DNA of 64,000 nt from Terramyces sp. JEL0728 (taxonomy: Eukaryota > Chytridiomycota > Chytridiomycetes > Rhizophydiales > Terramycetaceae). The stretch lies in NCBI GenBank assembly GCA_027603945.1, contig JADIIU010000043.1, forward strand, positions 1-64,000, given 5' to 3'. The notes beneath the pieces were generated by a model. It was not told where the DNA came from, did no database searches, and worked only from the letters and a program-made list of their open reading frames with translations. Made by a program: the position numbers and the translations under genes. This document shows positions 4,617 to 57,681 of the stretch, piece after piece. Position 1 is the stretch's first letter. The number at the start of each line of letters is the position of its first letter.

Positions 4617-4757
4617 ATGAAAAACATTATACTAGGAACTATATTCGCTGTGCTTGCTCTTGCAGCTCCGATCGCTCAGAATGGAAAATCTGGCGGTGAA
4701 TGCTTTCACCAAAATTCTTCACAAATCTGTTATCCTGGTGGGGGGCCAATAGAATAA
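4617..4757 (+). CDS. Small secreted C-x8-C peptide, family member 1
   Basis: Single exon, 46 residues. A hydrophobic signal peptide (KNIILGTIFAVLALAAP) is followed by a short Gly-rich spacer and the core C-FHQNSSQI-C-Y, then a tail PGGGPIE. It shares with six other peptides in this window the exact spacing of eight residues between two cysteines and the S-S-Q-I-C end of the loop. A disulfide-closed nine-bond loop is the natural prediction. There is no dibasic or amidation site. An AATAAA signal lies at 4761, just after the stop, so it is its own transcript. Upstream 4369-4616 is AT-rich non-coding DNA with a TTTAAAAG box near 4580. Function unknown; no match to any peptide family I know. Confidence 0.75.
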   Translation: MKNIILGTIFAVLALAAPIAQNGKSGGECFHQNSSQICYPGGGPIE

Positions 4758-5116
4758 TGATTATTAATAAAACGTAGTTAGATGCGGTTTGATATAATGT
4801 TACTTTATTGATGTCTATGTAAGGGGAGTCAATCAAGTGCGGCGGTCGATTCCTGTCACTGCATGGTTAAATACAAACATTTCCGTCCTGGTATGATTTA
4901 ATACAACTTATATATGGACTGCAATACCAACATTACGAAATAGTGAACCCTTAAACAAAAGAATGCTTCTTTATTAAAGGTGGTTGTTAAACAGTCGTTA
5001 AACGTTCAGTTGATACCTGTTTCAAAACTCGGTCGGCAAATCCCAAAGACAATATTTAAGTAAAGAGTTTATCCAGTAGATTTGAATTCGCTTTTACAAC
5101 TGCTTCAAAGTTTTCA
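4758..5116. other. Intergenic DNA between peptide genes 1 and 2
   Basis: AT-rich sequence holding the polyadenylation signal of peptide 1 and the promoter of peptide 2. I see no open frame with a signal peptide or the C-x8-C core on either strand. Confidence 0.5.
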
Positions 5117-5230
5117 ATGTTTAAATTAATTCTCATGCTACTAACTGCGTTCTCATATGGTATTCCAGTACATTGCCATAAGGATGTAAGTTCACAGATT
5201 TGTTTCGATCCAGGTCATGGTGAAGACTGA
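5117..5230 (+). CDS. Small secreted C-x8-C peptide, family member 2
   Basis: Single exon, 37 residues, the shortest member. MFKLILMLLTAFSYG is the signal peptide; the mature part is only about 20 residues, with core C-HKDVSSQI-C-F and tail DPGHGED. The start MFK is shared with five other members and fixes the ATG. AATAAA follows 11 bases after the stop. The loop begins with a basic pair HK, unlike the Ser/Asn-rich loops of its neighbours, and the tail is acidic. Role unknown; a secreted signal, an antimicrobial or an effector are all possible. Confidence 0.72.
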   Translation: MFKLILMLLTAFSYGIPVHCHKDVSSQICFDPGHGED

Positions 5231-5470
5231 TATTTGTATCCAATAAAATAGATAGTTTCCACTTTACCTCATGGCTTGTAAACTTATCGAGTGTCATTAA
5301 TCAAAGATATGAGATTGCAGTAGTCTTATTGAAATAGCCATCTTGTGAGCAGCTCAGAATCCGTTACTGTGCAGGTGGCGAAATATAAATTACACTGTTT
5401 ACCATAAAGATCTCCTTTATAGCCAATTGCTGAACCAAAGAGCTCCAGCCTAATTTCTTTGATCTAGAAT

Positions 5471-5489
5471 CACAAAAAATGTATATAAA
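5471..5489 (+). promoter_or_regulatory. TATA box plus A-rich element of peptide 3
   Basis: TCACAAAAAATG followed by TATATAAA, 24-31 bases before the ATG at 5513. Nearly the same arrangement (ATCACACAAAAAAATATATAA, 6005-6025) precedes peptide 4, and ATCACAAAA occurs at 10635-10643 before peptide 8. The box is close to the ATG, so the 5' UTR must be very short. Confidence 0.5.
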
Positions 5490-5512
5490 CCGTATTTGAG
5501 TACGATTCACAA

Positions 5513-5653
5513 ATGTTTAAATTACTAATTTCCCTTGCTGCTGCTGTTTTATCAAGTGCCATTGCAGTGCCCGATATACCTCCAATTGCCCTTCCTACTC
5601 CAATTTGCCACTCTGAATCTTCCAACCAACTATGCTATAACAATAAAAAGTAA
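5513..5653 (+). CDS. Small secreted C-x8-C peptide, family member 3
   Basis: Single exon, 46 residues. Signal peptide MFKLLISLAAAVLSSAIA, then a Pro-rich spacer (VPDIPPIALPTP), core C-HSESSNQL-C-Y and a short basic tail NNKK. The loop differs from the S-S-Q-I norm only by S-S-N-Q-L. AATAAA follows 10 bases after the stop. The Pro-rich spacer is shared with member 4, which suggests 3 and 4 are the most recent duplicates; their promoters are also alike. Confidence 0.75.
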   Translation: MFKLLISLAAAVLSSAIAVPDIPPIALPTPICHSESSNQLCYNNKK

Positions 5654-6060
5654 TAGGACAGACTAATAAAATACTTATAAATTGTACTCTTATTGCTTTG
5701 TCATTAAATTGTAGCCTTTACTTGTATTTGCGCAGTTCCCACTTATAGATCCAAGGTTTTGGAACTAGGCACCTATTAAACTCAAGGTTGCAAATAAATT
5801 TGCTGCAGAGAGTTGCGATACAAATTCATAAGGAGTTGTTTGACTTTCATGTAATACCGCCATTACACTTTCTCTGCCCGCAACTGCGTAATCTAAGCTC
5901 TCTTTGATGAAAGCATTACTGTTGCTTTTTCCAACAATTCCGCTTGACCGAATCAAAGGAATTCCACTGTATTTAGCCTGTTTTCTTTGATGGCGAAACG
6001 GCGGATCACACAAAAAAATATATAATTCACAGAATTTGGAACGGTTACAAATTTATACAC
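5654..6060. other. Intergenic DNA with an unassigned minus-strand frame
   Basis: Contains the 3' end of peptide 3 and the promoter of peptide 4 (TATATAA at 6019-6025). A minus-strand open frame at 5765-6013 (82 codons) has ordinary amino-acid content but no family I recognise, no signal peptide and no membrane segment. It would be the only non-peptide gene inside the first part of the cluster, and it overlaps the promoter of peptide 4, so I do not call it a gene. Confidence 0.4.
6005..6025 (+). promoter_or_regulatory. TATA box plus A-rich element of peptide 4
   Basis: ATCACACAAAAAAATATATAA, ending 35 bases before the ATG at 6061. It matches the element before peptide 3 apart from a two-base insertion (CA). 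The shared element and similar distance suggest co-regulation or a recent tandem duplication that included the promoter. Confidence 0.5.
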
Positions 6061-6198
6061 ATGTTCAAAATTATAATCGTCTTTCTTGTTGCTCTAGTAT
6101 CCAATGTGTCTGCTATTCCGTACCCTGCTATTCCGCGTCCAACACAAATTTGTCGTAGTGAAAATTCTGGTCAAATATGTCATAATAATAATATGTAA
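6061..6198 (+). CDS. Small secreted C-x8-C peptide, family member 4
   Basis: Single exon, 45 residues. Signal peptide MFKIIIVFLVALVSNVSA; Pro-rich spacer IPYPAIPRPTQI; core C-RSENSGQI-C-H; tail NNNM. One loop serine is replaced (N-S-G-Q-I), showing that the third residue before the final Cys-flanking Q-I pair can vary while Q is invariant. The poly-A signal is less clear here (TTTAATATATAATATT just after the stop). Function unknown. Confidence 0.74.
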   Translation: MFKIIIVFLVALVSNVSAIPYPAIPRPTQICRSENSGQICHNNNM

Positions 6199-6342
6199 TA
6201 GCAGTCTATTTAATATATAATATTTGATTTATCTTTGAACCAATTGCTATTTACAAATTGTGTTTTTACAAACGCACAGACAATCACTCATGAAACCACG
6301 ACTATAATAGACCACAGGTATTCACAAGGTTCACAACCGTAA

Positions 6343-6514
6343 ATGCTCAAGTTTACATTCATGTTACTCTCGATAACACTTGCTCTGCCAACTAGTACAG
6401 ATACAAATTTGGGTTCAGCAAGTACAACTAAAACTCACGGTGGTGATGTTGAATGCTGATGCCTCTTCAAACCAAGTATGTTTTCCCGCTCACAGTAACA
6501 ACTTGTCTGAATAG
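6343..6514 (+). pseudogene. Frameshifted copy of the C-x8-C peptide family
   Basis: The frame from ATG 6343 encodes a family-like signal peptide (MLKFTFMLLSITLALP) and a Ser/Thr-rich spacer, then reaches the first cysteine codon at 6454-6456 and stops at once (TGA 6457-6459). In the next frame, starting at 6458, the loop end S-S-N-Q-V-C-F and a tail run to TAG at 6512-6514. A net loss of two bases next to the first cysteine would account for it and would also explain why seven, not eight, residues now separate the two cysteines. A one-base insertion is the alternative. Programmed frameshifting seems unlikely, since there is no slippery heptamer. It is most simply a recently broken member. Confidence 0.65.
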
Positions 6515-6790
6515 ATTATTTCTATTCTAGTTGCATCATATAACAGCGGGACCTCTAATTTGGATATGATTCGAGGCTTCAATCGCACTGAACTTTTGAT
6601 ACACGGCTTGCTTGTTGGCGAGTGTGATCTAGAACGTAGAAATAATACTAGCTGTTGCAGTGCTGCTAATATGCATACACAATGAAAATCCATTTGCAAT
6701 GACTGTTCCAAAAGCGGGACCATGATTGGATCGGATCTTTTCGGCTGGTCGTTTCAGAAATTTTACCCAGCCAATTGTTTCCCAAAAAGA

Positions 6791-6928
6791 ATGTTTAGAA
6801 AGATATTGGTATTACTCTTAGCTACACTGGTAGTAGCAGCTCCAGCCCCAAAAGAAACTGATCCTCCTCGTGAATGCTTGCCATCAAGCTCTAGCCAGAT
6901 ATGTCACAATAATGGAGATGATTTTTAA
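6791..6928 (+). CDS. Small secreted C-x8-C peptide, family member 5
   Basis: Single exon, 45 residues from ATG 6791. The frame is open upstream to 6722, but MFRKILVLLLATLVVA at 6791 matches the start and signal peptide of the other members, so I use it. Spacer APKETDPPRE, core C-LPSSSSQI-C-H, tail NNGDDF. AATAAA lies about 7 bases after the stop. The H-N-N tail start is shared with member 4. Function unknown. Confidence 0.75.
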   Translation: MFRKILVLLLATLVVAAPAPKETDPPRECLPSSSSQICHNNGDDF

Positions 6929-7297
6929 TATCAATAAATAAGATTTTTTAGTATCAATTAAATATCTGATTTATTGAATTGACGCTGTACAATGGAGATG
7001 TATGGATCACATACTGGCTTGGTGCTACCGCAGAATCCACTTTTTCTAAGTAACGAGTATTTAAAAGTAGATTCTTGGTTATTTTGTGCTGAATCCTAGT
7101 TTGTTTCGCATGGATCTCGAACCATCCAAAAGTAGAAGTGAACCACATGTCGAAATTGCTTTGGATTTCTAGCACTAACATTTGCTTTACCAGTTGCAGA
7201 ACATTGGGGAACAGGCTATCAATGGCCATACTTTAACTTTCCAGAGTTAATAGTCTATGCTTAGTCTTAACGCCAAATATTTGTACAAACTCATTTA
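6929..7297. other. Intergenic DNA, no supported gene
   Basis: A minus-strand frame (6954-7229, 91 codons) fills much of this gap. It has an ATG and a mixed composition but no recognisable domain, and it lies downstream of the HIT gene on the same strand without a clear promoter. I see no remnant of the peptide family here. Confidence 0.4.
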
Positions 7298-7926
7298 TTA
7301 AATATCCCAATCCCAAGTAAAGTTATTTTGATACTTTTGCTTCCCTCTTTCTAAAGCATCAATCAATTTTTCAATAGGAATAAACCAATTGCAAAACCTT
7401 GAATCTGGATATTTCATTCCACGAAACATATTCTTGAATGGCCGTTCAATTATATGTAAATGTAAATGATCAATTGAATTGAATGGCGGTACATGGAATC
7501 CCAACACCAAGTTTGTCTTTATAATTTCCTTTGCTATCCGTGTCATGTTCTGGAGCATGGGAATATGAGCAGGTCCTAATTGCTTGACTGTCGCTACAAT
7601 AAGGAATGATTACCTATATGCAGTCTAGGAATAAGTAAATAGTGGGATTTTGCAGCTGGGTTGATATCTGCAAAGGCAATAAACTCTTCATCACTATAAA
7701 TGATTTTATTTGGTCCGTTTTGTTTAATAATATCGCAAAATACACATCTTTGTTTTGAGGTTGTCATCCTAACTGATTCGCAACCGAGTAACTTGTCCAA
7801 CTGGGGATGTAATAAGTGGTTAACGCAAATGATTTCCACGATAATGAATGATTCGTACAGATAGTGTCTGATGTATGGCGAAAATAATATTGCAGCTGCT
7901 AGTATTAGAAGCGCAATAAAGCGCAT
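7298..7926 (-). CDS. HIT-family hydrolase with N-terminal membrane anchor (HINT3-like)
   Basis: Two exons on the minus strand (7926-7614, 7593-7298) with a 20-nt intron; 202 residues. The HIT domain starts at about residue 60 with RCVFCDIIKQ and IIYSDEEFIAFADINP, continues LLIPRLHI, and ends with the catalytic triad motif HLHLHII. HIT enzymes hydrolyse AMP-linked or similar nucleotide conjugates, with the central His as nucleophile. Residues 1-20 (RFIALLILAAAILFSPYI) form a membrane segment, unusual for this family; a shorter form could start at the Met just before TTSKQRCVFC. It stands back to back with a second HIT gene (8063), so the pair is an inverted duplicate. Confidence 0.85.
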
Positions 7927-8062
7927 TCAATTTCAAAAGTTTGAAAAAGTAAATCGTGGATTGAGCATATAAACTTTATATTACACTTTATTAAGCGTTG
8001 CGTTTTGGAATCAAACTTTATTTCAAACATGATCAAATACCTTAACATGAGCACTTTATTTT

Positions 8063-8476
8063 ATGACTTGCATTTTTTGTGGGATTGTCGAAAAGAATGA
8101 TTCTGCAACAGTAAAGCACAGCGACAAGCAATTTGTCGCTTTCAATGACCACAGCCCAGCAGCTACAGTCCACTTGCTGCTTATCCCCAAAAAGCACATC
8201 CTCAATATAAAGGAATTAAAGAACTCGGATGTAGAGATGCTCAAAAACATGAAGCAAGTAGCAATCGAACTATTGACCCAAAATAATATCAAACCTGAGG
8301 ATCAATTGATTGGATTCCATGCTCCTCCATTTGTATTTGTTCCCCATTTGCATTTACACGTAATTGGAAAACCATTTACCAGTACTATTAAATCAGGACT
8401 GTTCCAAAATTGGTACTTGATCAATCCATGGGTAGATATTGACTCTGCTATCGAATCTCTATTAAAAAACGAATAA
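8063..8476 (+). CDS. HIT-family hydrolase (HINT3-like), soluble
   Basis: Single exon, 137 residues, the normal size for a HIT domain. CIFCGIVEKND at the start, KQFVAFNDHSPAA, LLIPKKHI, and the triad PHLHLHVI near residue 105. The PPF element before it (GFHAPPFVFVPHLHLH) is shared with the neighbour at 7298 (GFHVPPFNSIDHLHLH), which marks the two as paralogues, and is also seen in HINT3/aprataxin-like proteins. It lacks the membrane anchor of the neighbour, so the pair may serve cytosolic and membrane pools. The two start codons are 136 bases apart in opposite directions and probably share a promoter. Confidence 0.87.
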   Translation: MTCIFCGIVEKNDSATVKHSDKQFVAFNDHSPAATVHLLLIPKKHILNIKELKNSDVEMLKNMKQVAIELLTQNNIKPEDQLIGFHAPPFVFVPHLHLHVIGKPFTSTIKSGLFQNWYLINPWVDIDSAIESLLKNE

Positions 8477-8650
8477 ATTTATATCCACTTTGATGTTGTG
8501 CGAATTGGGACTTGTAAATCTTTTAAAGTACTCGTACAAAGACAGGCTATATGCAATATATAATGGGATCAGTGACAAAGAAACCGTTCCATCCATTGCA
8601 TAGCACACCAACCAAATCGATATCCACCCCGTTACAAAAAGAATTGGCAT
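8462..8650 (-). CDS. Possible small two-pass membrane protein
   Basis: 62 codons with an ATG start. Two hydrophobic stretches (ILFVTGWISIWLVCYAM and LSLIPLYIAYSLSL) are followed by a polar tail. It fills the gap between the HIT gene and the 7-TM gene and overlaps the HIT stop by 15 bases on the other strand. No family recognised. It could equally be a chance frame, or one exon of something larger that I could not splice. Confidence 0.25.
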   Translation of the reverse strand: MPILFVTGWISIWLVCYAMDGTVSLSLIPLYIAYSLSLYEYFKRFTSPNSHNIKVDINLFVF

Positions 8651-8788
8651 TCAAAGACATTCTGACTCTCTGGTACAAGTACATGTTTGGCAAATAATAA
8701 ATCCAATTGTCTATTGAACAATGAGGTTTCCATTATTTGTAAACAAAAAAATGTATTTACGCATTGTAAAATAAAAAAGTTCATTAGA

Positions 8789-10108
8789 ATGATTTTAGGT
8801 CCTGACAACTTTTACGTTTACTCGTTCTTTTTGGTTTACTTGTACGCGGTTGTGCTGTATTCTGGGTATCGATGGCATTATATTCCTAAACGGCAGCGGG
8901 TGTATTACACTGGCTCCATGCTGTTTTATATCCTTGGGTTCAGCTGCTGTATACTCTTTTCAGACACGATTGGCAATTCTTTTGAATGCCAGGTTGGAAG
9001 GAAACTTGTCTATCTGTGTTTTTCTGTTGGGGTGATCATTTGTGTACTTGGCCAATTGAAGAAAGTAGCACATTTTTCAAGGAACAACAGTTTCGGAACA
9101 TTTGCACTTGTTGGTGGGTATTCCTTGAAGATCCTGTCATGTTTCAAAGCCCTGTATGATGTTAACGCGCAATCATCAGATATGTTTGATGAATACTACT
9201 TTTGTTCTAGTGGCTTTGACAGTAGTGCACTTTATTTCGATATCGGTACAAATATCCTGGTGGAAATGTCGATATTACTTCAATATGTGATTTACGCAAA
9301 GGAAAGGAAGGAGGGATTCATGAATGTATTCTACTCGCTGTGGGATTTGGAATGCCGGCTTTACCTTGGCATTATTATTGCGAACGTAGCTTACTTGTTT
9401 TTCAGCTTTGAATCCGTTGAAAACCCTCAGTTCTATTATTCAATCTACACTGCGATACCAACAGTTGCCATGTCCATAGCTATAATTGCACCCGTTGACA
9501 CTTCAAAAAGAGGATTAGATTCTAGTACACCCTTGACCAATTCTTCACTAGGCGAAAAGATTAAGAGTGAACATGAAAAGAAAGCTGTTCGCAAACCAAA
9601 TAGAATTTTTGCAAATCATATTGAAAAGCAGCGGGCTGGACATGGCGATAGCTGCGACGGACTTGGATCTGTCCACGCAACTTCATTCTCTTCGCTGAAT
9701 GACTCTATGAGAAAGTTGAATGAAAATATAGAAGATCAAAAGATACAAAAAAGCGCAGTCAAAGGAAAAGGCAGTCCACTTGCAAGACGACACACAGACA
9801 AAGACAAAACCAAGAACAGTCCAAAATTCATCATTCCAAGCAAAGAACCCGAAGCTAAACAAAGTATATGGGAAAAGTTTTGCGACAAACCATCATTCAA
9901 AAAATGTTTATTCAAAAACAATTCATCTAAAAGCGAGACGCAATTATCAATCGAACAAAAGTTTTCAAATTATTTGAAAGACGGGGATGGGAGCAGTGAT
10001 TTATCGCTTGAAACTCGTAGAATCAGTCCTCATTTTGCTGGTATTTTCCGGAATGAAGAGTGGGTAAGGCAAAGCAACAGTGATTCCGATGATGAAAAAA
10101 GTACTTAG
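8789..10108 (+). CDS. Orphan seven-transmembrane protein with long cytoplasmic tail
   Basis: Single exon; the first in-frame ATG is at 8789 (439 residues). Seven hydrophobic segments are visible in the first about 235 residues, beginning FYVYSFFLVYLYAVVLY and ending YYSIYTAIPTVAMSIAIIA. The remaining about 200 residues are hydrophilic, rich in Ser, Lys and Asp (for example SSLNDSMRKLNENIEDQK, SNSDSDDEKS), like the phosphorylated tail of a G-protein-coupled receptor. I recognise no named GPCR family and see no DRY or NPxxY motif. It lies inside the secreted-peptide cluster, between members 5 and 6, so a role as a receptor for one or more peptides is an attractive but untested idea. Confidence 0.7.
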   Translation: MILGPDNFYVYSFFLVYLYAVVLYSGYRWHYIPKRQRVYYTGSMLFYILGFSCCILFSDTIGNSFECQVGRKLVYLCFSVGVIICVLGQLKKVAHFSRNNSFGTFALVGGYSLKILSCFKALYDVNAQSSDMFDEYYFCSSGFDSSALYFDIGTNILVEMSILLQYVIYAKERKEGFMNVFYSLWDLECRLYLGIIIANVAYLFFSFESVENPQFYYSIYTAIPTVAMSIAIIAPVDTSKRGLDSSTPLTNSSLGEKIKSEHEKKAVRKPNRIFANHIEKQRAGHGDSCDGLGSVHATSFSSLNDSMRKLNENIEDQKIQKSAVKGKGSPLARRHTDKDKTKNSPKFIIPSKEPEAKQSIWEKFCDKPSFKKCLFKNNSSKSETQLSIEQKFSNYLKDGDGSSDLSLETRRISPHFAGIFRNEEWVRQSNSDSDDEKST

Positions 10109-10252
10109 TGCTGTTGAATATATTCCTTTTTTATTCCATGTCTGTACTACCAGATTACTGCCTTTCCATTTACGAATCGCAATATTCTTTACGCCTTGAA
10201 TCCGCCGAGTTTGTGACTGCTTTTAATTGTACCCAAGTTCTGAAGGAGCATT

Positions 10253-10283
10253 GCATTTCGTAAGCGGTAAATGAAATATAAAA
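10253..10283 (+). promoter_or_regulatory. Promoter element and TATA box of peptide 6
   Basis: GCATTTCGTAA (10253-10263) then TATAAAA (10277-10283), 28 bases before the ATG at 10311. The same 11-mer GCATTTCGTAA occurs at 10665-10675, followed by TATAAG at 10682-10687, before peptide 7. An exact 11-base match at similar positions in two divergent peptide genes suggests a shared factor site. Confidence 0.5.
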
Positions 10284-10310
10284 GAAATGTAACTTGACGC
10301 GGTACAGATA

Positions 10311-10430
10311 ATGTTCAAATTAATCGTTATACTTTCCGCTGCCTTCTCTCTGCCAACTCCTTGCAACAATAATAATTCCAGCCAAATTTGCTATATAGCT
10401 GACACTATTCCTAATGCACCATCAAAATAA
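10311..10430 (+). CDS. Small secreted C-x8-C peptide, family member 6
   Basis: Single exon, 39 residues. Signal peptide MFKLIVILSAAFSLP is followed almost at once by the core C-NNNNSSQI-C-Y, so the mature peptide has hardly any spacer before the first cysteine. The tail is the longest of the family (IADTIPNAPSK). Four asparagines fill the variable half of the loop. AATAAA overlaps the stop codon region. The loop half N-N-N-N versus H-S-E-S or F-H-Q-N in others shows that the first four loop residues vary freely while S-x-Q-I-C is fixed. Confidence 0.75.
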   Translation: MFKLIVILSAAFSLPTPCNNNNSSQICYIADTIPNAPSK

Positions 10431-10710
10431 AACTATTTAATCATATTATCTTATTCTAGTCAGCCGTACCCAATTGGTGATACTATGACTCGTTATTTCA
10501 ACACTTCAACGCAATTAAAGTACAGGAATTCTGGTTGGAGCAGTGTAACTGTTGCACTCATCACACTGAATGCCGCTTGTGGCTCTTTGGCTGTCATTCA
10601 CCGAATTTTGTGCAAAGAGTGCTTTTACCGAGAGATCACAAAATTTCGCAAACTGTAATTGACGGCATTTCGTAATTGTTCTATAAGAAAATCAAAAGGG
10701 AATTCAAATT

Positions 10711-10833
10711 ATGTTTAAACTGTTAATCGCCGCTCTGTTTTCTGCACTCGTTGCTGTATCAATAGACATTGACCATCCAAAACACTGCCATTCAGAATCA
10801 TCAAGTCAAATTTGTCATGCAGTTGGGCAATAA
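10711..10833 (+). CDS. Small secreted C-x8-C peptide, family member 7
   Basis: Single exon, 40 residues. Signal peptide MFKLLIAALFSALVAV, spacer SIDIDHPKH, core C-HSESSSQI-C-H, tail AVGQ. The loop is one substitution class away from member 3 (HSESSNQL). The 11-base promoter element GCATTTCGTAA is at 10665-10675. AATAAA appears about 45 bases after the stop. It is the last member, 65 bases from the 3' end of the PAQR gene on the other strand. Confidence 0.75.
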   Translation: MFKLLIAALFSALVAVSIDIDHPKHCHSESSSQICHAVGQ

Positions 10834-10898: not shown

Positions 10899-12013
10899 TC
10901 AATGTTTCTTGAACCAGCTAATCATTTGCTGATCTGAATGAACGCACTGCGAATTGCTTGTATGCCACCAGCTGTACATTCGATAAATCGCAAGATAATT
11001 CGCAATCACAGCAGAATAAACAAATAAATGCCAAATCTGATGCGAACTGCCAAAAATATCAAACCTGGTAGGAACCCATCTTTCTGGAATATGCAGAATG
11101 TAAAATACCACTCCAATAAGATATAGGCTCCACGTCATCAATAAATCTCCAAAGGAATACGAGTGGGTCGACATTGAAAGGCCGTATCTGTATATATGGT
11201 GCAACAACGGAATAGTTCCAGTTGCACCAGCAAAAACAAATATGTTTGTCCGCAACCATCTGTACTGCACAGTTTCATACTTGTGCCCCAAAGTAATATA
11301 CATCTACCTTAAAACCAATTACTGTCAAAGCCCCAATAAGAATCGAGCAAACCAGGTAAACAGGCTTATAGAAAGAATCACAGTAAAATCCATAATAAAT
11401 ACAGGGCACATACTGTCCACTAAATTAATCTTACTTACACTCCTAGAAATACTATCCCCGCATAATCAGCTTTGTTACAAGTAACAGAAACTCTTCTAGA
11501 ATGGCAAGTACACAAATGGAACACAGTCGAGCAAGCAAGACAAGCAAACGCACCGCTAAAAAACGAAAAGAAACTCAAGTAATCATAAACGGTATTCGTA
11601 TCAAACTCCTGCATCCGATAAAAGTACGTATAATACATGAGCGGGAAGAGTGATAGCGAGCCTAACAGATGCGTGTAAACGTTTCCTGTTTCGTTATGCA
11701 AGTACAATAGCGATAGTATACATCCTGTCCATGAATTTGTTTGGCGTCTGTAACCGGTAAGTATGTATTCGTTGTCGCAGGACCAGATAGAAGCGTGTTT
11801 TATAGTCGTTGTATAAATATTAACTGAGTTCCTGTAATCATTTTCAAACTGTTTGTAATCTACCAATCGTGATAATATTTGTACTTGTGGTTTTGCAGTG
11901 ATGTTTGGTGATATTAGCGGCTGAGTGGCTTCTTGGATCTTTGTGGTTACCGCACGCAGTTTTGTTGAGGGGTCTCTGGATGACTGTCTCGATCTAATTC
12001 TAATTTCAGACAT
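10899..12013 (-). CDS. PAQR-family seven-TM receptor (AdipoR/Izh-like), paralogue 1
   Basis: Three exons (12013-11439, 11419-11308, 11279-10899) with introns of 19 and 28 nt; 355 residues. A cytosolic N-terminus is followed by EYILTGYRRQ, then the first-helix motif YLHNETGNVYTHLLG typical of PAQR proteins, STVFHLCTCHS (zinc-binding H of helix 2), and near the end SSHQIWHLFVY (the second zinc H-x3-H pair). These three histidine sites form the Zn2+ centre of ceramidase-like AdipoR receptors. Fungal members (Izh) affect sterol and zinc homeostasis. Its paralogue lies at 13959-15005. Its 3' end is 65 bases from secreted-peptide gene 7, which makes it one of several receptor-like genes beside the peptide cluster. 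Confidence 0.88.
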
Positions 12014-12231: not shown

Positions 12232-13919
12232 TTAAATCATTTTTGCAACCCCAAAGTCAATTAATTTGATATCTCCTTCAGCAGTCAAAATAACATTCTC
12301 TGGTCGCAAATCATCATGAACTACACCGACAGATTTTAATTCTTTTACCGCCTCTCCCAACTTTTTCTTTAAAACATCATCTCCTCTCCAGTCGCAGTGT
12401 TTTCCTTGAATAAAGTCCATCGCAATGAAGTGTTGTCCAAAGTATTCGCATTCCCCATAATACTTTGGAACACACTTTAATTTGTAATTTGATAATTTTC
12501 GATATATTTTGATCTCGTTCTTCAACATTTGATAGCCATCACGATTATTAAAAGTGTCACAACATTTTACAACAATGTTGGTGTCTTTTAATCGAATTGC
12601 TGACCCAGTTGCTCCAGAACCAACAAATGTTCCATTTCTAAGTGCATTGATATCAAGATGGTATCTTTTGAGCTTAACGTTCATGTCTGTTGAGTAATTG
12701 CTGCAATTATCTGATTTTTCTTGTGAATCATCAATCTCCATATGTTCTTGAGAGTTCGATTCATCAGACGACGACTCCACATCATCATCAAATTCTGTAT
12801 AAGGCATTGCACCGTCATTTGGACTTGATTCAATGCCGTTACTATTATTTCCAACTACTAGACGAATAAAATAATAAATGGACTGTAATAGTGTTGGAGA
12901 CGTGGAATAATGGTATATTGCATCGCTGATAAGAAGTCTTCCTTCACTTGGTCTATGCAAAAAATATGTTACATCATAACAAGTCACGCATCCATACTTT
13001 AGATTGTTGAATGCTAAATATCCATAAACTTGCTTGATCACTGTGAAAACCTCCTTTCTTTTTAATTCAGGTCGAGTGTTGGAGCTTTTATCATATTTCC
13101 TATCTTTCCTATACATTTCGATTAAATCAAACAGTTCATTTTCATTTTTTTGCACAGGCAATGTATCAGGGGATTTATCTTCAATAAAGGACACAACTTT
13201 CGGACCAAATGTTAATAAAAAATCTGGCTTTCCAATAAATTTAACACAGTTATTTCCCTCACTTGGGTTTTCAGTAAATGCCTGCGCTTTTGTCACGAAT
13301 TTGCAATTTCTTCCTTCATCCCTAAATATCCTATTGAAGTTATGTAAATGATTATGAATAATCGTGTCAACGTCCTTTTCTGAACCGATTTCAACAGTTG
13401 AAGTACCCGGTAACTTGACATCATTTCCAATTCGGGTATTAGGATATGAATAGTTTGCTGCGTCTGACTTGAAAGCTTCCCAGCGTCCCATATACTTTGG
13501 AGTTCTCGGATGACCTCTTTCGGTCTGAGTGCCAGACTTTACTTCCAACGCTTTTTCGACTGGTTCAAGAATATTCGATAGAAACCTCCTAATTGTTTCC
13601 TGTTTTGTATCAATTAATAGTGCTGTGTCTTCCGTATTTCCAAAGGTCAATTCTGTCAGCAGTTGGCCGCCTTTAAGAGCATCATTCTCCAAGTTCCCTA
13701 TAGTCAAATATTATTATTACCAATATGCAGTGTTACGTTTTCTGGTAAACCAAAGATACTTTTTCGTTCTGGTTCTGCTAGAAAAGCTCCAATTAAATCG
13801 GCGACGTTCGAAAGAGGTAATCCTCTCTCTTTTCCATCCGGGTGAAAGTTAGTGTGTATTTGAACAGTAAGGTTATTCCCATATCGAATCCAAAAGGTCC
13901 TATTCCCATTTTGATTCAT
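12232..13919 (-). CDS. Crinkler-like effector: header, PD-(D/E)xK nuclease and short kinase domain
   Basis: Exons 13919-13721 and 13697-12232 with a 23-nt intron; 554 residues. The N-terminus (LPLSNVADLIGAFLAEPE) resembles the header of Crinkler-type proteins. A middle region has KPDFLLTFGPKVVSFIEDK, the P-D..E-x-K pattern of restriction-like nucleases. The C-terminus is a small kinase: GSGATGSAI loop, VVK lysine, VVHDDLRPENVIL catalytic loop, LIDFGVAK metal loop, and the protein ends four residues later. Nuclease-kinase pairs are a known Crinkler architecture; these proteins act as secreted or selfish effectors in oomycetes, chytrids and glomeromycetes. I see no signal peptide. The stop right after DFG means most of the C-lobe is missing, either normal for this short type or a truncation. 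Confidence 0.65.
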
Positions 13920-13958: not shown

Positions 13959-15005
13959 TCATTTATTAAACCAATTGATCATTTCTTGATCGGAAACCAA
14001 GCATTGAGGGTTGTTATTATGCCACCAATAGTACATTCTAAAGACCGCAAAATAATGACTAATAACACCTGAATACACGCACAAATGCCATATTTGATGA
14101 GAGTGGCCAAATATATCAAAAGCATACGGGATCCAACGTTCAGGTATACGGTAAGCATAAATAAAAGCTCCTCCCAAGTACGAAGCACCCATTATCAAGA
14201 CGTATTCAACAGCGAATGACTCAAATGCCATATTAACTCCATATCGCCATACGTGGTGGAATAGCGGAACCACTCCCAGCGATCCCAAAAGAGTAAACAC
14301 ACCAGTTCGCAACCAACGATACTGCGGTGTAGCATACTTGTGCCCCAAAGTAATATAAATCTACATTAAAACCAAATACAGTAAAAGCACCGCACACACT
14401 GATAGCAGCCAAATACAATGTCCTATAAAAAGAATCGCAATAAAATCCATAATACAGACACGGCACAAACGACCCGCTAATTTAAAATCAACTTACACTT
14501 GCAAAAATACAATTCCAACGTAATCCGCTTTGTTGCAACCCACAGATACGTGTCTAGAATGGCAGGTGAACAGGTGGAATACAGTTGAACATCCTAGACA
14601 TGCAATAGATCCAATGAAAAACGGAGTTAGAGCGAGGTAATCGTAGATACTCGTTGATTCGCTAGTCATCCATTGGAAAAATGTAAAGTAAATCAATGGG
14701 AATATAGTTAATAATCCAATCAAGTGTGTATAAACGTTCCCTGTTTCATTGTGAAGGTAAGTGAGAGATAAAATACATCCCCGAAAAGAATTTGTTTGTC
14801 TTCTGTATCCATGCAAGATATAATCAGTATCACCAAACCAGACGGGAGCGTACTTTCTGGTAGTTGTGAAAATATTGATAGAGTTTTCATGGTTACTAAA
14901 TTGCTTGTAATCTGCATACCTGGCAAGTTTGATTGGTTTCTCTTCTGGCTGTTTTTGCAGCGGTTGCTTTGAAGTTGCCCTTGCCCGGATTTTTATTTCT
15001 TGCAT
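13959..15005 (-). CDS. PAQR-family seven-TM receptor (AdipoR/Izh-like), paralogue 2
   Basis: Three exons (15005-14497, 14476-14365, 14336-13959) with introns of 20 and 28 nt in the same places as paralogue 1; 332 residues. Motifs: YILHGYRRQTNS, YLHNETGNVYTHLIG, STVFHLFTCHSRH (zinc His), FNYATPQYRWLRTGVF (matching the FATPKHRQTRAGVF-type loop of AdipoR), and HSHQIWHLCVYSG (zinc H-x3-H). All zinc ligands are present. The second intron is nearly identical in sequence to that of paralogue 1 (27 of 28 bases) although the exons have diverged. The gene pair encloses the tRNA and the Crinkler-like gene, so those may have been inserted after the duplication. Confidence 0.88.
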
Positions 15006-22700: not shown

Positions 22701-25700
22701 AGCAATTTTTCTAGAGTCGGAGAAGGCCGTAGAGTTACCAGTTGGAAAAAATCAAGCAAATTTAGAAACGGCTCATATACTCAAGATTAGAGAATCATTT
22801 CCTTATGATGATAACCCAGCTCCTTCTCCAATATCATCTGTTTTTGAAAGGGAAGAAGCCGACCTTAAACGCACAAGGAAAAGAAAACTACAAACCAACC
22901 TAAAATACGATTTTAAGTATTACAAACTAAGCAATCAACTTTTTTCCATAGCAAACATTATTTTTCTACCAATTTTTATATCGCGCAATGATTTTGATCA
23001 AATATTATTGATATACAGTCCCTTAATATTTGCTCAAACTATAGCCTATATTTTCAGTAGATACAAAAACAGTCTTTTCAGCAAAAACAAGCAAAGCAGC
23101 TTGCAATCCGGTATACAGATCGCATTCTTGGTAAGTTGCGGAATTCCATGGATTTATCTGGAAGATTATATGTGTTTCTTTCAATTAATACCCAATTTTG
23201 TTATTCTCTCGGAGGTGGATATTACAGCTGTTGTGAACCAGGTTAAACACGCTGGATATAAGTTCAGTTCCGAGGCACTTTTCGGGTTGCAAGTATTTAT
23301 TTGCATTCTTATATATTGGTAAACTATAATTCACAAAAGGAATTTTATTGCCTCAATTTCGATATATGCAGGAGATTTTAGTATATCCGATTATGCTGTT
23401 TATTACAGTATGGAATTCCACGAAGCAGCTGCGCGGATGCTAAACAACGGGTACTTGATAATTAAAGTAAGGTGTGGAGCTTTAGCACCTTCCACTCCAC
23501 AAGAATATTATCTGCGGACTATAAATATGTTGCTGAATGCTTTTTTTCTAGCATTATATGTCGGAAACATTTCTAGATATATGATTGGATTGGACAGTAC
23601 CGGGAGGAAATTTCACGAACAACTGGAGCAGGTTGGACAGTATATTAGCTATAAAGGGCTTGGAAGAGAATTGAAACACAAGATTCTCCATTTGTACAAT
23701 TTGAAATATATCAATAGCAAGTATTTTGACGAAGAAAGGATATTCCAGGAGCTTAATCAGCCGTTGAAGCTAGTAGAAATTTGCTAATACAGTCTATTTA
23801 CTTGAGAGAATGTGCACCGTTAATTAGACAAGTTCCTTTTTTCAAAAGTTCTGAAAAAGGATTCATATCCAATCTTGTTACAATGCTGAAGCCGATACAC
23901 TTTTTAAAAGACGATATCGTAATAGAAAAAGGATCAGTAGGAGCACAGATGTTTTTTATATCATCCGGATATTTGGAAGTAACTTTGAATGGCAGAGTGC
24001 TAGGCAAATTGTCTCCAGGACAATATTTTGGAGGTAGTCCCCGTTAACAGTAGAAATTGCGTTATTGTTGAGAAATCCGAAAAGGACAGCTACGATTAAA
24101 GCACTGACGGATTGCTTCCTGTTTTCATTGACAAGAGAGGCTTTGTACAAGATAAAGGACTGGTATCCCGATGTCGGAAAAAGAATGCAAGAAATGGCAG
24201 ACGAGCGAATCGAGGCCGATAAATTAAATTTCATGAAAGAAGTGCCATTCTTTAAAGGCGCAACGAAAGAGTTCTTTTCGGAAGTTTTTACAGCGCTGAG
24301 AATGGTTGCCTTTGAAGCTGGAGATGTTATTATTGAAAAAGGCACCATTGGAGAAGAAATGTATTTCATAATCGGTGGGTCAGTGAACGTAGTGATAAAT
24401 GATGTGGTCACATTTACAATGAGCGCAGGAATGTATTTTGGAGAGATCGCAATCATAATGGAAAACACAAAAAGAACTGTCAATATTGTCGCAGCAACTT
24501 TTTGCACATTGTACAGCCTTTCAAAGTACGACTTGAATACTATTATTGTCGGACACCCCGAATTAGCAGATAAGATGCTGCAGGTTGCCAGCGAAAGGAT
24601 ATTCAACGACAAAATTCGTAACATTCTCACCAAAGTTCCTTTCTTAAAAACTGCTAGCAATGATGTGGTGGCTAAATTGGCAAAGCTGATTCAAATAGTG
24701 CCATTTCAAGCTGGAGATCAGATATATGATATCGGGATGCCAGGAGATTCAATGTTTTTTATTATCTCTGGGGAGATTGGAATTTATGACGAAGAAAGAA
24801 AAATATCTCACCTTACGGAGGGCCAATTCTTTGGCGAAATCTGCCTTATATTCAAAGACGCAAAGAGGACTTGCAAAGTAGTTGCTGTAACGAACTGCGA
24901 ACTATACGAACTTGGCCGGCTTAACTTGAACAAAGTACTAGCTGATGATCCGAAATTAGGCGATATTATTCAATCGGTTGCAACTCATCGAATAATGGAA
25001 AACAAAGTCCGGAAATTAGTTAGCCAAGTCCCGATTATGCATGGGGCCAGTAAAAGCGCTCTTTCGAAAATTGTGAAATTACTCAAACTTGAAAGGTATT
25101 ATCATGGGAATATGGTTGTAAAAAAGGGTGACATTGGAAACGGAATGTATTTTATAGCTTATGGCACTCTAAATGTAGTTAGAGATGACAAGATAGTCGC
25201 TGTTCTTGAGTCGGGACAGTATTTTGGAGAAATTGACTTGCTAAGTGACTGTGTCCGGACCGCTAGTGTAATTTCAACAGGAACATGCGAGCTATATTAT
25301 CTATCAAAAGAAAATTTCAAAGAGGTTGTAGCGGAATTTCCTCAAATCCAAGAAGTTTTGGAGCAAGCAGCAAACGAAAGAATCCAAAATGACAAAATTC
25401 GAAAATTGCTCAACGATATCCCATTTTTTGCTGAAGTTGAAGATTCAATAATTTCAGAAATATTTGATTCTCTCACTCTTGTACACTATTTTCCAAACTC
25501 TATTATTTTTGAAAAAGATGAAATTGGATCTTGTATGTACTTTGTTGCATCTGGCAGTCTCGTTGGCAAAATTGGAAAAGAAGTGATTACATACATGAAA
25601 GGTGGACAGTTTTTTGGAGGTAATCAAAAGTTAACACAGAAATTTCCTTGCTATTTGATTCGAAAAGAACAGCATCTGTGTGCACCGAGACTGATTGCAC

Positions 25701-27005
25701 GCTGTACACACTACAAAGGGCTGATTTGGATGGAATTCTATTAAATTTTCCAATTGCAGCCGCAAAACTAAAGAAGGTAGCTCACGATAGATTGAGATAT
25801 GACAATATTAGAGAAATGATTAAAAAAGTATCGTTCTTCAAAGATGTTGAGGAGGAAGCCGTCCTAGATATCACAAAAATTTTGAAAACTGAACCATTTC
25901 ATGCCGGCGAATATGTTATTCTAAAAGATCAACTTGCCGATAAAATGTATTTCGTTATATCTGGCAAATTCCAGGTTATAATCAACGACGTAGTTGTATC
26001 TGAACTCTCAAATTCCCATTTTTTTGGAGGTACAGTGGTGAATAACATAGAAATTGCTATTCTTCAAGCAGACTCAAGACGCACTGCTTCAGTAAAATCG
26101 GCAGGAGAAGGCGAATTGTTGTCGTTATCAAGAGTGGAATTACAAGGAGCCTTAAAAAAGTACCCAAAAATATTGAATTCATTGAAAACAACGGTGGAGA
26201 AAAGATTGGCAAAAGACGGCCTTCGAGCCAGAATTTTGGACATACCGATATTCAAAGAAGCTAATAGCAACTTTATACTGGAGTTGATTGATAATCTAAC
26301 GACGGAAATTCACTTTAGCGAAGATAAAATCATCACACAGGGAGACTTGGCCGATGCAATGTATTTTATTACTTTTGGAGAAGTACAGATATTTATCGAT
26401 GAACAAAAGATAGGGGCAATGTCATCTGGACAATATTTTGGAGGTAATTAAAGATAACATCAGAAATTGCTCTCCTGACCGAAAACACCCTTCGCACAGC
26501 CAGTATAGTGGCAGTTGGAACTTGCGAGTTTCTCAAATTGAACAAATTTTCTTTTAATTTGATTGTGGAAAAATATCCAGAGGAAAGGCTCAGATTACAG
26601 CTCGAAGCCGAAAAATTAATAATCAATGACAAAGTGCGAATTCTCCAAATTTCTAAACTTTCGCCATTTTTCAAGTGCAAGAAAATTGCTCTGTTGGAGG
26701 CTGCTGCTGAAAAGTTGACAGTTGCAAAGTCCCCTGCCAACAAAGTAATATTCGAGAAAAATTCAAATGGGGATTGCATTTACTTTGTAAAAAGCGGCAA
26801 AGTTACAATTAAAGACTCTGCAACTTTCATGTACGACTTGAAAAAGGGAGATTGCTTTGGAGGTATTTTAATTTAATAATCAGACTATAATTGTAAATTG
26901 GAAGCGCAAACTAAAAGAAAATATACAGCCATTGCAAAAAACGACTGTGAATTGTATATTCTTAGCGGTAGTGACTTTTTGAAACTGCCAAATGAAGTTA
27001 ATTAG
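19795..27005 (+). CDS. Fused protein with two channel-like membrane regions and nine cyclic-nucleotide-binding domains
   Basis: Fourteen exons (19795-19948, 19968-20589, 20610-20717, 20737-21028, 21048-21288, 21309-22610, 22631-23318, 23340-23772, 23793-24033, 24054-25619, 25640-26029, 26051-26443, 26464-26862, 26884-27005) with 13 introns of 19-21 nt keep one frame for 2316 residues. Region one: a coiled coil, membrane segments from ECPIHPLSLFSQIW, a C-linker (FDEQKILHELNTPLK) and one CNBD. A Ser-rich linker of about 450 residues follows. Region two: more membrane segments, a second C-linker (FDEERIFQELNQPLK) and eight CNBDs in a row. CNBDs 1-8 keep the phosphate-binding FGE..RT motif; the ninth is degenerate. 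Neither pore region shows the GYG filter of HCN/CNG channels. No in-frame ATG exists at the start of region two, which supports one gene. Confidence 0.8.
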
Positions 27006-54371: not shown

Positions 54372-54614
54372 TTTATCAGGAAAACAAACTCGCATCAGGC
54401 GACTTTAAATTTTACACCATAGTCCGCGTCTGGATTCAAACCAGCTGCTAGCTATGGCCAATGCTCCAAATGTGGTTCCATTGAACATTGGCTGTCGATC
54501 AGCAATCAAATGTCATGATCGCCACTTACTCCCCCATTTGCGGCGTGGATCATGAACGAAGCCCCACTTTGCAGCAAATGACTATTTATACCAAATGCAG
54601 ATCTGTCAAGAGAT

Positions 54615-55466
54615 ATGGATAGACAACCGGGTGCCTATAGAACCATTGCTGGTTTATTGATAGGGTTAGGCATTCACAATATCTTGTGCGCAGTGTTTGT
54701 GCTGTTCCAGAAATCTCAGAGAGGTTCCCAAAGTGCAATCTGGTACTTGTCGCTCTTTGCTTCGTTCTCAGTCATTGCGTTTCTGCTAGTTCAAGTGATG
54801 ATGCTGGACTTTATGACCTCACCTTATGCGGCCGCGAATTGGTACATTGGATTGCTGCTAATGCTGAATTGGGCCTTCCACTTTCTTTCAGGCGTATCTA
54901 TATCCATTATATTGCTTTGTCGGCTTTGTATCTTTTATGACAGCAGAACAATCATAACCAAATCCATGACTCTGCTCTTGGTGCTAGTTATCCTGGTCAA
55001 AGGCGCTTCTAACGGGCTTGGTGTTTACTGCACTTATGGTGTATTCACGAATCAAATCTTGACGTATGAAGATCATCCACAGTTCTCTCTCGCTGAGGCT
55101 TTGGCAGCAGGAGCAGGTGTTGTAGAAGGAGTGTTTTCAATTGCAGGTTCAATTTCGTTTCTCAATGCCCTGTTTACCTCATTTATTGACAAATCATCAT
55201 TTGCGAAAGGGATTCTACTAAAACACGAAGGATACCGACTGATGATTATTTTGGTTCTCCACATCCTAACGTCGGTCCTGCTCTTGTACAATGCCATTTC
55301 GTATCAAAGTCAATATACGCTGCTTGGTTTCTACATCCCATCTTGGAATTATGGTTTGGAAGTTTACACCTTCCTGGAGCTGACCTATCACTCGGCCAAG
55401 AATATCATCCTCGACCAACAATGGACAGCCCAGCAACAAAGTAAATCTCAAAGCAAAAGTTTTTAG
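54615..55466 (+). CDS. Seven-TM protein, tandem paralogue A (short tail)
   Basis: Single exon, 283 residues. Seven hydrophobic segments from AYRTIAGLLIGLGIHNILCAV to NYGLEVYTFLELTYHSAK, with a short cytoplasmic end. The second segment ends VQVMMLDFMTSPYA, repeated in paralogue B as VQMIILDYLTSPYA; the sixth is preceded by LKHEGYRL in both. I know no named family for it. Such orphan 7-TM proteins are common in chytrid genomes and may be G-protein-linked sensors, but no classic GPCR motif is visible. Confidence 0.65.
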   Translation: MDRQPGAYRTIAGLLIGLGIHNILCAVFVLFQKSQRGSQSAIWYLSLFASFSVIAFLLVQVMMLDFMTSPYAAANWYIGLLLMLNWAFHFLSGVSISIILLCRLCIFYDSRTIITKSMTLLLVLVILVKGASNGLGVYCTYGVFTNQILTYEDHPQFSLAEALAAGAGVVEGVFSIAGSISFLNALFTSFIDKSSFAKGILLKHEGYRLMIILVLHILTSVLLLYNAISYQSQYTLLGFYIPSWNYGLEVYTFLELTYHSAKNIILDQQWTAQQQSKSQSKSF

Positions 55467-55858
55467 TAAATCGTTTCAATATCTTAATAAATGTTTCAAT
55501 ATCTATTTAATCAAACAGATTCGCCTTGCTGGAATTCTGGCTATCCAGTAAATCTAAATGTACCTTGTCTTGTGAACCCCAGCCATGAAGGGTGCACAAT
55601 TGTCTGGGTCGTTCCTTTGATTCCCATTCGGGGAGCCAATCAAGCCCGTGGCCGCTGACCATAGAACATCTGCAACATTGAAATATAAACAGAGTAACGT
55701 ATTGGATATTACCACTGGTTTTCTCACGCTCGGTTCAACTCTTTGATGCGGGTATTTAAATTGCAGTTTCTAAAACGGACAGTTGAAAGAAAAACCGGGG
55801 ACCTTGAAAAGCGCAGATTTATAAAAGGTCGTTCGCACAATTTTGTGTTACAATTACA
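55467..55858. other. Intergenic DNA between the 7-TM paralogues
   Basis: No coding signal. A TATA-like box (TTTATAAAAG, about 55818-55827) lies 32-41 bases before the next ATG at 55859. Confidence 0.55.
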
Positions 55859-57681
55859 ATGATTCGTCAAGAGAGTGCGTACAGAGCATTCGCTGCGCTG
55901 ATGCTTGGAATTGCGGTCCACAACTACTCGAGTTCAGGGCTGCTACTGATATCAAAGGCAGACAAAGCAAATACCGGCTGGATTTGGAGACTTTCTTGTT
56001 TAGCTTGGCTGTTCAGTGTCGGATTTCTAATTGTACAAATGATTATTTTGGACTATTTAACCTCACCATATGCTGTTCCAGACTGGTGGGTCGGGCTAGT
56101 AGTCTTGCTCAACTTTTTGTTCCACTACTTGGGGGCTTTGTTTATCGCTTGGACTCTGTTAATAAGACTGCGGGTTTTCTATCCGGTAATTCCTTTCTAA
56201 TTTAGAATTCATCACTGTATGTCATTTCAATGATTGTGCTCCTTGTTACAATTTTCGTTTCCAGAACAGTTTCTGATATGACTGGAGTGTACATCAGCTA
56301 CACTGTCCTTCAAAACAAATACTTGGCCTATGAACAGCACCCTTACTTTTCATTCTGTGAAAAGGTTACAGCCGTATCAGCAATTATTGAGGCTGTTTAC
56401 TCTTCGCTAGGTTCGTTGGGATTCCTGAATTCACTCGCCGACGCCGTCCAGTCCAACAAAAAGAGTTTCTTTATGAATGTGCTCGTCAAACATGAAGGTT
56501 ACAGACTGGTGCTAATTGTTGTTCTGCAAAGTCTCACAGGTATCCTCTTATTGTGGGAATCAATCTTTGGTAGAACTGTCATCACCAACTCTGCGTTATA
56601 CATTCCTTCGTGGACGTATTCTATTGAATTGGTTGCATTCCTTGAACTATCATATGTCACTGCCAAGAAAATCATGCTGGAACAATCTCACACTCCGTCA
56701 TACAGAGCTTCTTCACATGAAAAGCGATCAAAAATGGATTCTGAAGTTCATTTTGAATCTGGAAAAGTTTCAACGGATTATCAACGGCCAACGTCTCCTC
56801 AATTCATCGATTTTGAGAGCGGGAAGAAATCTGCCGAACTTAATAGGATGCAGCAAGAACGAAACACACCAAACTACAACCCGTTAAGTGAATATAACCA
56901 AGATTTAATTCCAAACAATGACAGTAATGTTTATCGCGAAGATTCGAGAAAATATTATGACTATGAAAGCGGAAAGAGATCTGCTGATATAGCCAGAGAA
57001 GAGTCTGCAAGAAGACAGCCACTGTCACCAAAGTTGGAACGAGCAATCCCTCAAAATCCATATGATCCTCTCCAAAACTACAGTAGAGATTTCATTATGA
57101 GAAAGGATTCCCTTGCAACTGCCGTTCCTCCAAATGGATATCCTACTTCTCCAATATTGAACAAGGAAAGAGTGCCTTCACATGCATACTCGTCATCTCC
57201 AGTTTCTCAAAAGAATTCTCCAGAAATGAAGGCTGCTATTCCTGAAGAATCTGAACAACAGTCTGTGTTTACTTATGATTATTCCGCAAGAAGGGCAGTT
57301 GCTAAACCGGAAGCCAACGACCATCTTGGCTCGCCAGTACCTTTGTCTCCAATTCAGCAAGCATTACAAAGGACTTCCTCTCCATTTGCATCATCTCCTC
57401 AGGATAAACCTCCTACCCTTTCAAGCATCTATAAAGATTATTCTTATGAAGAAACTTTCAAGTCCGCTGCTGATCATTCTAGCCCAAGGTCAGCCAGAAT
57501 ACAGAATCATGCCACTCAGTCGGCACAGGCGTTTGCTGATGGCCAAAGCTCTCCAGTGTCCAGTTCTCCAACTAGCCCATCACAAAATACTTATGATTAT
57601 GCCAAGCAGTCTATCCAAAGCAGCGTAGTTGCTCCATACAGGCCGCCATCAAAGAATGCCAAGAGAAACCAATATCAATAG
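55859..57681 (+). CDS. Seven-TM protein, tandem paralogue B with long repeat-bearing tail
   Basis: Exons 55859-56185 and 56206-57681 with a 20-nt intron; 600 residues. The first 275 residues repeat the seven-segment layout of paralogue A (LTSPYAVPDWWVGL, LVKHEGYRLVLIV, IPSWTYSIELVAFLELSY). The remaining 320 form a hydrophilic tail rich in Ser, Pro, Gln and Tyr, with an internal repeat: HFESGKVS, DFESGKKSAEL, DYESGKRSADIAREE, each followed by Pro-rich LSP or TSP sites, plus several later YDYS/YDYA boxes. The SP and TSP sites suggest phosphorylation by MAP kinase or CDK. Paralogue A lacks this tail, so the two may have split signalling duties. Confidence 0.68.

Follow-up and report, generated by a model that had tools for sequence, protein, structure and literature searches.

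A tandem array of tiny two-cysteine peptide genes enclosing an orphan seven-transmembrane gene in the chytrid Terramyces sp. JEL0728, a possible peptide-ligand/receptor locus

Within the genome of the Rhizophydiales chytrid Terramyces sp. JEL0728 (GCA_027603945.1), we analyzed the first 64,000 nucleotides of contig JADIIU010000043.1 (the window), in which a tandem array of very small genes encodes secreted-looking peptides with two cysteines. Seven open reading frames (ORFs) of 37-46 amino acids, which an earlier reading of the DNA (the original prediction) had placed between positions 4617 and 10833, are all intact and all on the + strand. That account gave the seven genes correctly and overlooked two further features inside the array, namely a broken eighth copy and a gene for a seven-transmembrane (7TM) protein resembling G-protein-coupled receptors (GPCRs). 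The features are as follows, with AATAAA distances counted after the stop codon.

4617..4757, + strand: peptide gene 1, 46 amino acids, core CFHQNSSQICY, AATAAA at +9
5117..5230, + strand: peptide gene 2, 37 amino acids, core CHKDVSSQICF, AATAAA at +12
5513..5653, + strand: peptide gene 3, 46 amino acids, core CHSESSNQLCY, AATAAA at +12
6061..6198, + strand: peptide gene 4, 45 amino acids, core CRSENSGQICH, no AATAAA within 90 nt
6343..6520, + strand: eighth copy, broken, its leader and first Cys sharing a frame and its S-N-Q-V-C-F loop end lying in another
6791..6928, + strand: peptide gene 5, 45 amino acids, core CLPSSSSQICH, AATAAA at +5
8789..10108, + strand: orphan 7TM (GPCR-like) gene, candidate receptor, 439 amino acids, inside the array between members 5 and 6
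10311..10430, + strand: peptide gene 6, 39 amino acids, core CNNNNSSQICY, no AATAAA within 90 nt
10711..10833, + strand: peptide gene 7, 40 amino acids, core CHSESSSQICH, AATAAA at +47

When the three frames of the segment at 6343-6520 are read apart, Cys codons stand at 6454 and 6479 and the loop-end codons match those of the other members; since this copy is frame-broken, the array comprises eight copies, one of them broken. Genes 3 and 4 form the closest pair, with 48% identity. The start said to be usually MFK occurs in five of the seven (the exceptions are MKN at 4617 and MFR at 6791), and the AATAAA said to follow most stop codons lies within 90 nt in five, four of these within 12 nt and one at +47, with none for 6061 and 10311. 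The ORF of gene 5 has a further in-frame ATG upstream at 6722, and its leader begins at 6791. At 7146-7262 there is also a leader-like reading lacking a matching core, perhaps an older relic of the array, to which we attach little weight.

Every member carries exactly two cysteines after the leader, eight residues apart, and all seven share the core C-x4-S-[SNG]-Q-[IL]-C-[HYF], as had been described. Five alignment columns are invariant: the initial Met, the two Cys, and the Ser and Gln of the loop end. The predicted signal peptide is borne out under a hydropathy criterion, with 10-residue leader windows scoring 2.0 or higher in all seven and 2.5-3.8 in the six members listed. The search pattern proposed earlier, C-x(4)-[SN]-S-x-Q-[ILV]-C, was one residue too long, and a regular expression of that length matched none of the seven. 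Sixty dinucleotide shuffles of the window yielded no leader-bearing ORF with the full motif, against seven in the real sequence; for a leader with C-x8-C alone the figures are eight and a shuffled mean of 0.17, the eighth real case, at 27236, being probably an unrelated ORF. Each ORF holds a single core, so that the precursors have no repeated peptide copies, and six of the seven have no Kex2 dibasic site after residue 10, while 5513 has one KK at its very C-terminus. The C-termini (PIE, GED, NKK, NNM, DDF, PSK and VGQ) include no CaaX motif, and net charge ranges from -3 to +1. An X-P dipeptide of the Ste13 type is possible next to the leader in six members under a rule-of-thumb cleavage rule, such dipeptides being common after leaders anyway. 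An AlphaFold model of peptide 1, built from the seven-row alignment, reached a predicted local distance difference test score (pLDDT) of 60.4 and a predicted template modeling score (pTM) of 0.20, with only the leader helix formed and the ring left without a resolved structure.

Substitution proportions were calculated over all 21 pairs of the seven members; low counts and the saturation of synonymous sites limit what these values say about selection. Across the five codons of the loop end (S-x-Q-I-C), synonymous differences stand at a saturated 1.01 and nonsynonymous differences (pN) at 0.19, whereas the four codons of the loop front give 0.78 and 0.63, a ratio of nonsynonymous to synonymous differences (pN/pS) of 0.81, also saturated. 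Leader codons 2-13 give 0.69 synonymous and 0.46 nonsynonymous, and the three codons that precede the first Cys give 0.61 and 0.67, the sole ratio above 1 (1.11). Both TCN and AGY codons are used for Ser. By column identities, the placement of the conserved loop positions on the C-terminal side is one of 70 possible arrangements. The coding regions can be aligned (mean z 4.3) and the 120 bases on either side hardly can (z 0.75 and 1.0); together with the saturation of synonymous sites, this indicates that the duplicates are old, that the frames end where they have been drawn and that what is preserved in the loop end is the protein sequence. The comparison thus supports the view, drawn from sequence, of an array of real genes under protein-level constraint. 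Of the conserved scaffold and variable face proposed originally, the fixed loop end and the nearly free loop front stand, while diversification by selection does not follow from a loop-front pN/pS of 0.81.

Two codon patterns for the loop end, which replaced a broader earlier one that hit 265 places and, reversed as a control, 83, were run on the 15.0-Mb genome and matched 49 places (reversed control 17) and 21 places (control 10); by construction they would miss copies that had lost the Ser or Gln. We examined all 70 places, of which eight lie in the array and 62 elsewhere. A Cys nine residues upstream of the loop end occurs in two of the 62 (L048 and L067), both with Phe in place of Ile/Leu, and in loci L001-L111 outside the array no ORF combines a leader with just two Cys spaced C-x8-C. 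The genome-wide motif search called for by the original prediction therefore returns such peptides, among these 70 places, from this array only. Four of the seven peptides (4617, 5513, 6791 and 10711), used as protein queries, likewise retrieved array members only. In the remaining 40 kb of the contig beyond the window, positions 66001-69500 were read.

None of the seven has a Pfam match over cut-off. Below it there are two matches, each to one member: LPAM_1 (E 0.23), and DIM (PF08194, the bomanin family) to member 1 at E 0.053, with 14.2 bits against a cut-off of 20.8, covering leader residues 1-24 and leaving the Cys core outside. A protein database search with the peptide alignment gave 50 candidates, none at E<=10, and a profile search of PDB gave five weak matches at E 1.3 or worse. 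Close relatives seem not to be in the database, yet its silence says little about peptide relatives because the 439-residue product of the neighbouring 8789 gene likewise retrieves only itself there. In the available portions of the literature searched, which covered few subscription journals, we found no C-x8-C peptide family described for chytrids. The statement that this is no described family thus holds so far as Pfam cut-offs and database relatives go, its full test of novelty being limited by a thin database.

The 8789 protein has seven hydrophobic segments, an outside N-terminus and a cytoplasmic tail, by hydropathy windows merged by eye and a positive-inside count, and the helices are also present in its structure model. 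In fold comparison this low-confidence model, set beside no control model, fits Ste2 best. In nine of nine domains of the family, helix 3 has a Gln close to its end that may correspond, judged by helix position and outside the stretch covered by the profile alignment, to a Gln conserved at 99% in Ste2 (Gln149; PMC8942848, as given in the available text). The helix 7 motif printed there for Ste2, LPLSSMWA (PMC8942848), is in none of the nine; four have Pro after L or I at that point, and three rows, from a locus of three tandem 7TM genes on another contig (C38, L111), stop there at an apparent exon edge. The only outside relative found for the family is a protein of Boothiomyces sp. JEL0866 (P0002), also a member of Rhizophydiales; one domain of this protein is 83% identical to a paralogue in this genome. 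This record holds two such 7TM domains in one model, perhaps two genes fused in annotation. Two HIT/DcpS_C-family genes also stand back to back inside the array, at 7298-7926 (- strand, apparently split by a short intron) and 8063-8476 (+ strand).

On sequence evidence we put at roughly 0.4 the probability that in this Rhizophydiales chytrid the array is a pheromone-like peptide-ligand/receptor locus; it has the look of a locus for peptide signaling, and of a type still to be described in such fungi. The original prediction had named pheromones, antimicrobials, effectors and rival-inhibiting peptides as candidates for recognition; the receptor-like gene inside the array favors signaling among these options, while the net charge weakens the antimicrobial one. 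Under the signaling proposal, each small gene would yield one preprotein, whose leader would be removed in the endoplasmic reticulum; a single disulfide would then ring eight residues, and the mature product, about 20-28 residues long, would be set free without any Kex2 cut. All members may present the same face, the fixed S-x-Q-[IL]-C-H/Y/F end of the ring, to a single shared partner, with the ring front and tails giving each member its individual identity. The 8789 7TM protein, whose gene lies between those of members 5 and 6, would be that partner and would act as a GPCR, and cells (zoospores or gametes) could so recognize kin, mates or strains. Secretion, the disulfide, ligand-receptor pairing and the recognition role are what we infer for the peptides.

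Several results weigh against this proposal. Position inside the array does not prove partnership of the 7TM protein, because the two HIT-family genes share the interval, and no shared upstream word rises above Markov-chain samples in the eight upstream regions. The sister 7TM genes (L108-L115) have no C-x8-C ORF nearby, within about 3 kb on each side on C48 and C4 and about 1.5 kb on C38. The small chance (about 0.0025-0.012) that a cluster from the two 7TM families of this genome would overlap the array was computed after seeing the case and rests on family counts that are lower bounds. The 8789 model has a pLDDT of 54.9 and a pTM of 0.57 from an alignment of two sequences, and is of low confidence; helical bundles can reach a fold score of about 13-14 without kinship. 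Sequence kinship with Ste2 was looked for and not found: Pfam STE2 (PF02116) gave no match at E<=10 in any of the eight rows of the family, hhalign gave a probability of 0.1%, profile alignment gave z -0.52 against pattern-preserving shuffles, and the family had no match among PDB sequences.

The peptides can be set beside several known systems. Basidiomycete mating loci hold several small pheromone genes beside a 7TM receptor gene, and here too small peptide genes lie beside a 7TM gene; the pheromones there are lipidated CaaX peptides pairing with Ste3, whereas the array peptides have a leader and no CaaX end. Ascomycete alpha-type pheromones are, like the array peptides, products of the secretory pathway, many with two conserved Cys, and one example is printed with C-x6-C spacing, according to the available text of PMC6339444. 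The likeness may extend to an X-Pro start, possible next to the leader in six of seven members, and to a 7TM protein whose low-confidence model fits Ste2 best. In contrast to the Kex2-cut repeat precursors of that type, the array has no dibasic repeats, one peptide per precursor and a ring of eight rather than six, and, unlike in the alpha-type/Ste2 system, the candidate ligands and the 7TM gene are linked here and no Ste2 sequence kinship was found. KEX2-processed repeat proteins (KEPs) are likewise precursors of peptides that fungi secrete, and the part of PMC6339444 available reports them for some Chytridiomycota too; the array precursors differ in having one core each and no dibasic repeats. 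Small secreted cysteine-containing effectors of fungi are similar in being tiny, secreted-looking, tandem and apparently lineage-restricted, but the array peptides have only two Cys, a very short mature part and no Pfam or solved-structure sequence match.

The main alternative is that the ringed peptides act outward, binding a host, prey or competitor as effectors or rival inhibitors, with the 7TM gene an unrelated neighbor. Tandem, apparently locus-restricted, tiny genes for secreted-looking peptides with variable faces would suit such a role, as would a broken copy of the kind seen in birth-and-death families, an interval that evidently admits unrelated genes (the HIT pair) and sister 7TM genes without peptides. 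We consider it somewhat less probable than the signaling proposal. Against it, conservation is highest in a short loop end that all members share, as would be expected of a single partner common to them, and no selection above neutrality emerges in the loop front (pN/pS 0.81). It is improbable that the peptides are structural or metal-binding, holding a metal ion through His and Cys or decorating the cell wall with no recognition role. One to four His follow residue 13 in six of the seven, and His directly follows one or both Cys in five; the His are neither position-invariant nor universal, there being none in 10311, and the invariant Ser and Gln are not metal ligands.

Membrane-active antimicrobial peptides, also small and secreted-looking with one possible disulfide, seem a still less probable identity, since a net charge of -3 to +1 in all seven makes cationic action unlikely and no dibasic site lies outside the leader save the one terminal KK. 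That the ORFs are decaying or chance readings is very hard to credit: one of eight copies is broken and two of seven lack an AATAAA within 90 nt, but none of the 60 shuffles produced motif ORFs and the loop end has been preserved despite saturation at synonymous sites.

If the signaling proposal were right in its strongest form, the locus would be the first peptide-pheromone/receptor locus in Chytridiomycota, with separate genes for several disulfide-ringed ligands grouped around one for a 7TM receptor of Ste2 fold, a claim we regard as doubtful. Class-D-like peptide sensing would then be older than the Dikarya pheromone system or have arisen beside it. In their available texts, one GPCR survey identifies neither a reliable Ste2 nor a reliable Ste3 in Chytridiomycota (PMC3251606) and another confines Ste2 to Ascomycota and finds Ste3 predominantly in Ascomycota and Basidiomycota (PMC12842992). 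With candidate ligands and a candidate receptor in one compact locus, this gap can be tested directly, using synthetic peptides some 25 residues long. Should the pairing be wrong, the array would still hold an unnamed, constrained peptide family, which routine annotation may well miss because its ORFs are only 37-46 codons long.

A second orphan 7TM family is represented in the window at 54582-57681 (+ strand) and on contigs C47, C9, C157, C20, C5 and C19, with 20 match places in the genome when exon pieces are counted apart. One member (L116, on C20) matches Pfam STE2 at E 0.0023, its 17.7 bits falling short of the 27.2-bit cut-off, and neither of the two members in the window, which lie toward its far end, matches; the family is possibly a chytrid expansion of class-D-like receptors. 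Kinship between the two 7TM families was looked for and not found. No Ste3 match was obtained in the genome, and control genomes gave none either, so absence is not established. For Dicty_CAR there is one partial match on C213 (21.3 bits, one internal stop). Beyond the array, a haemolysin-III-related membrane protein gene lies in two pieces at 10899-12010 (- strand), and a reading at 13959-14231 (- strand), similar to it by eye, is perhaps another local duplicate. Between them, at 12232-13491 (- strand), is a protein kinase gene (Pfam Pkinase) with a long N-terminal part, resembling fungal FunK1-type kinases, and at 24038-25744 (+ strand) is a reading frame with five successive stretches of cyclic-nucleotide-binding domain.

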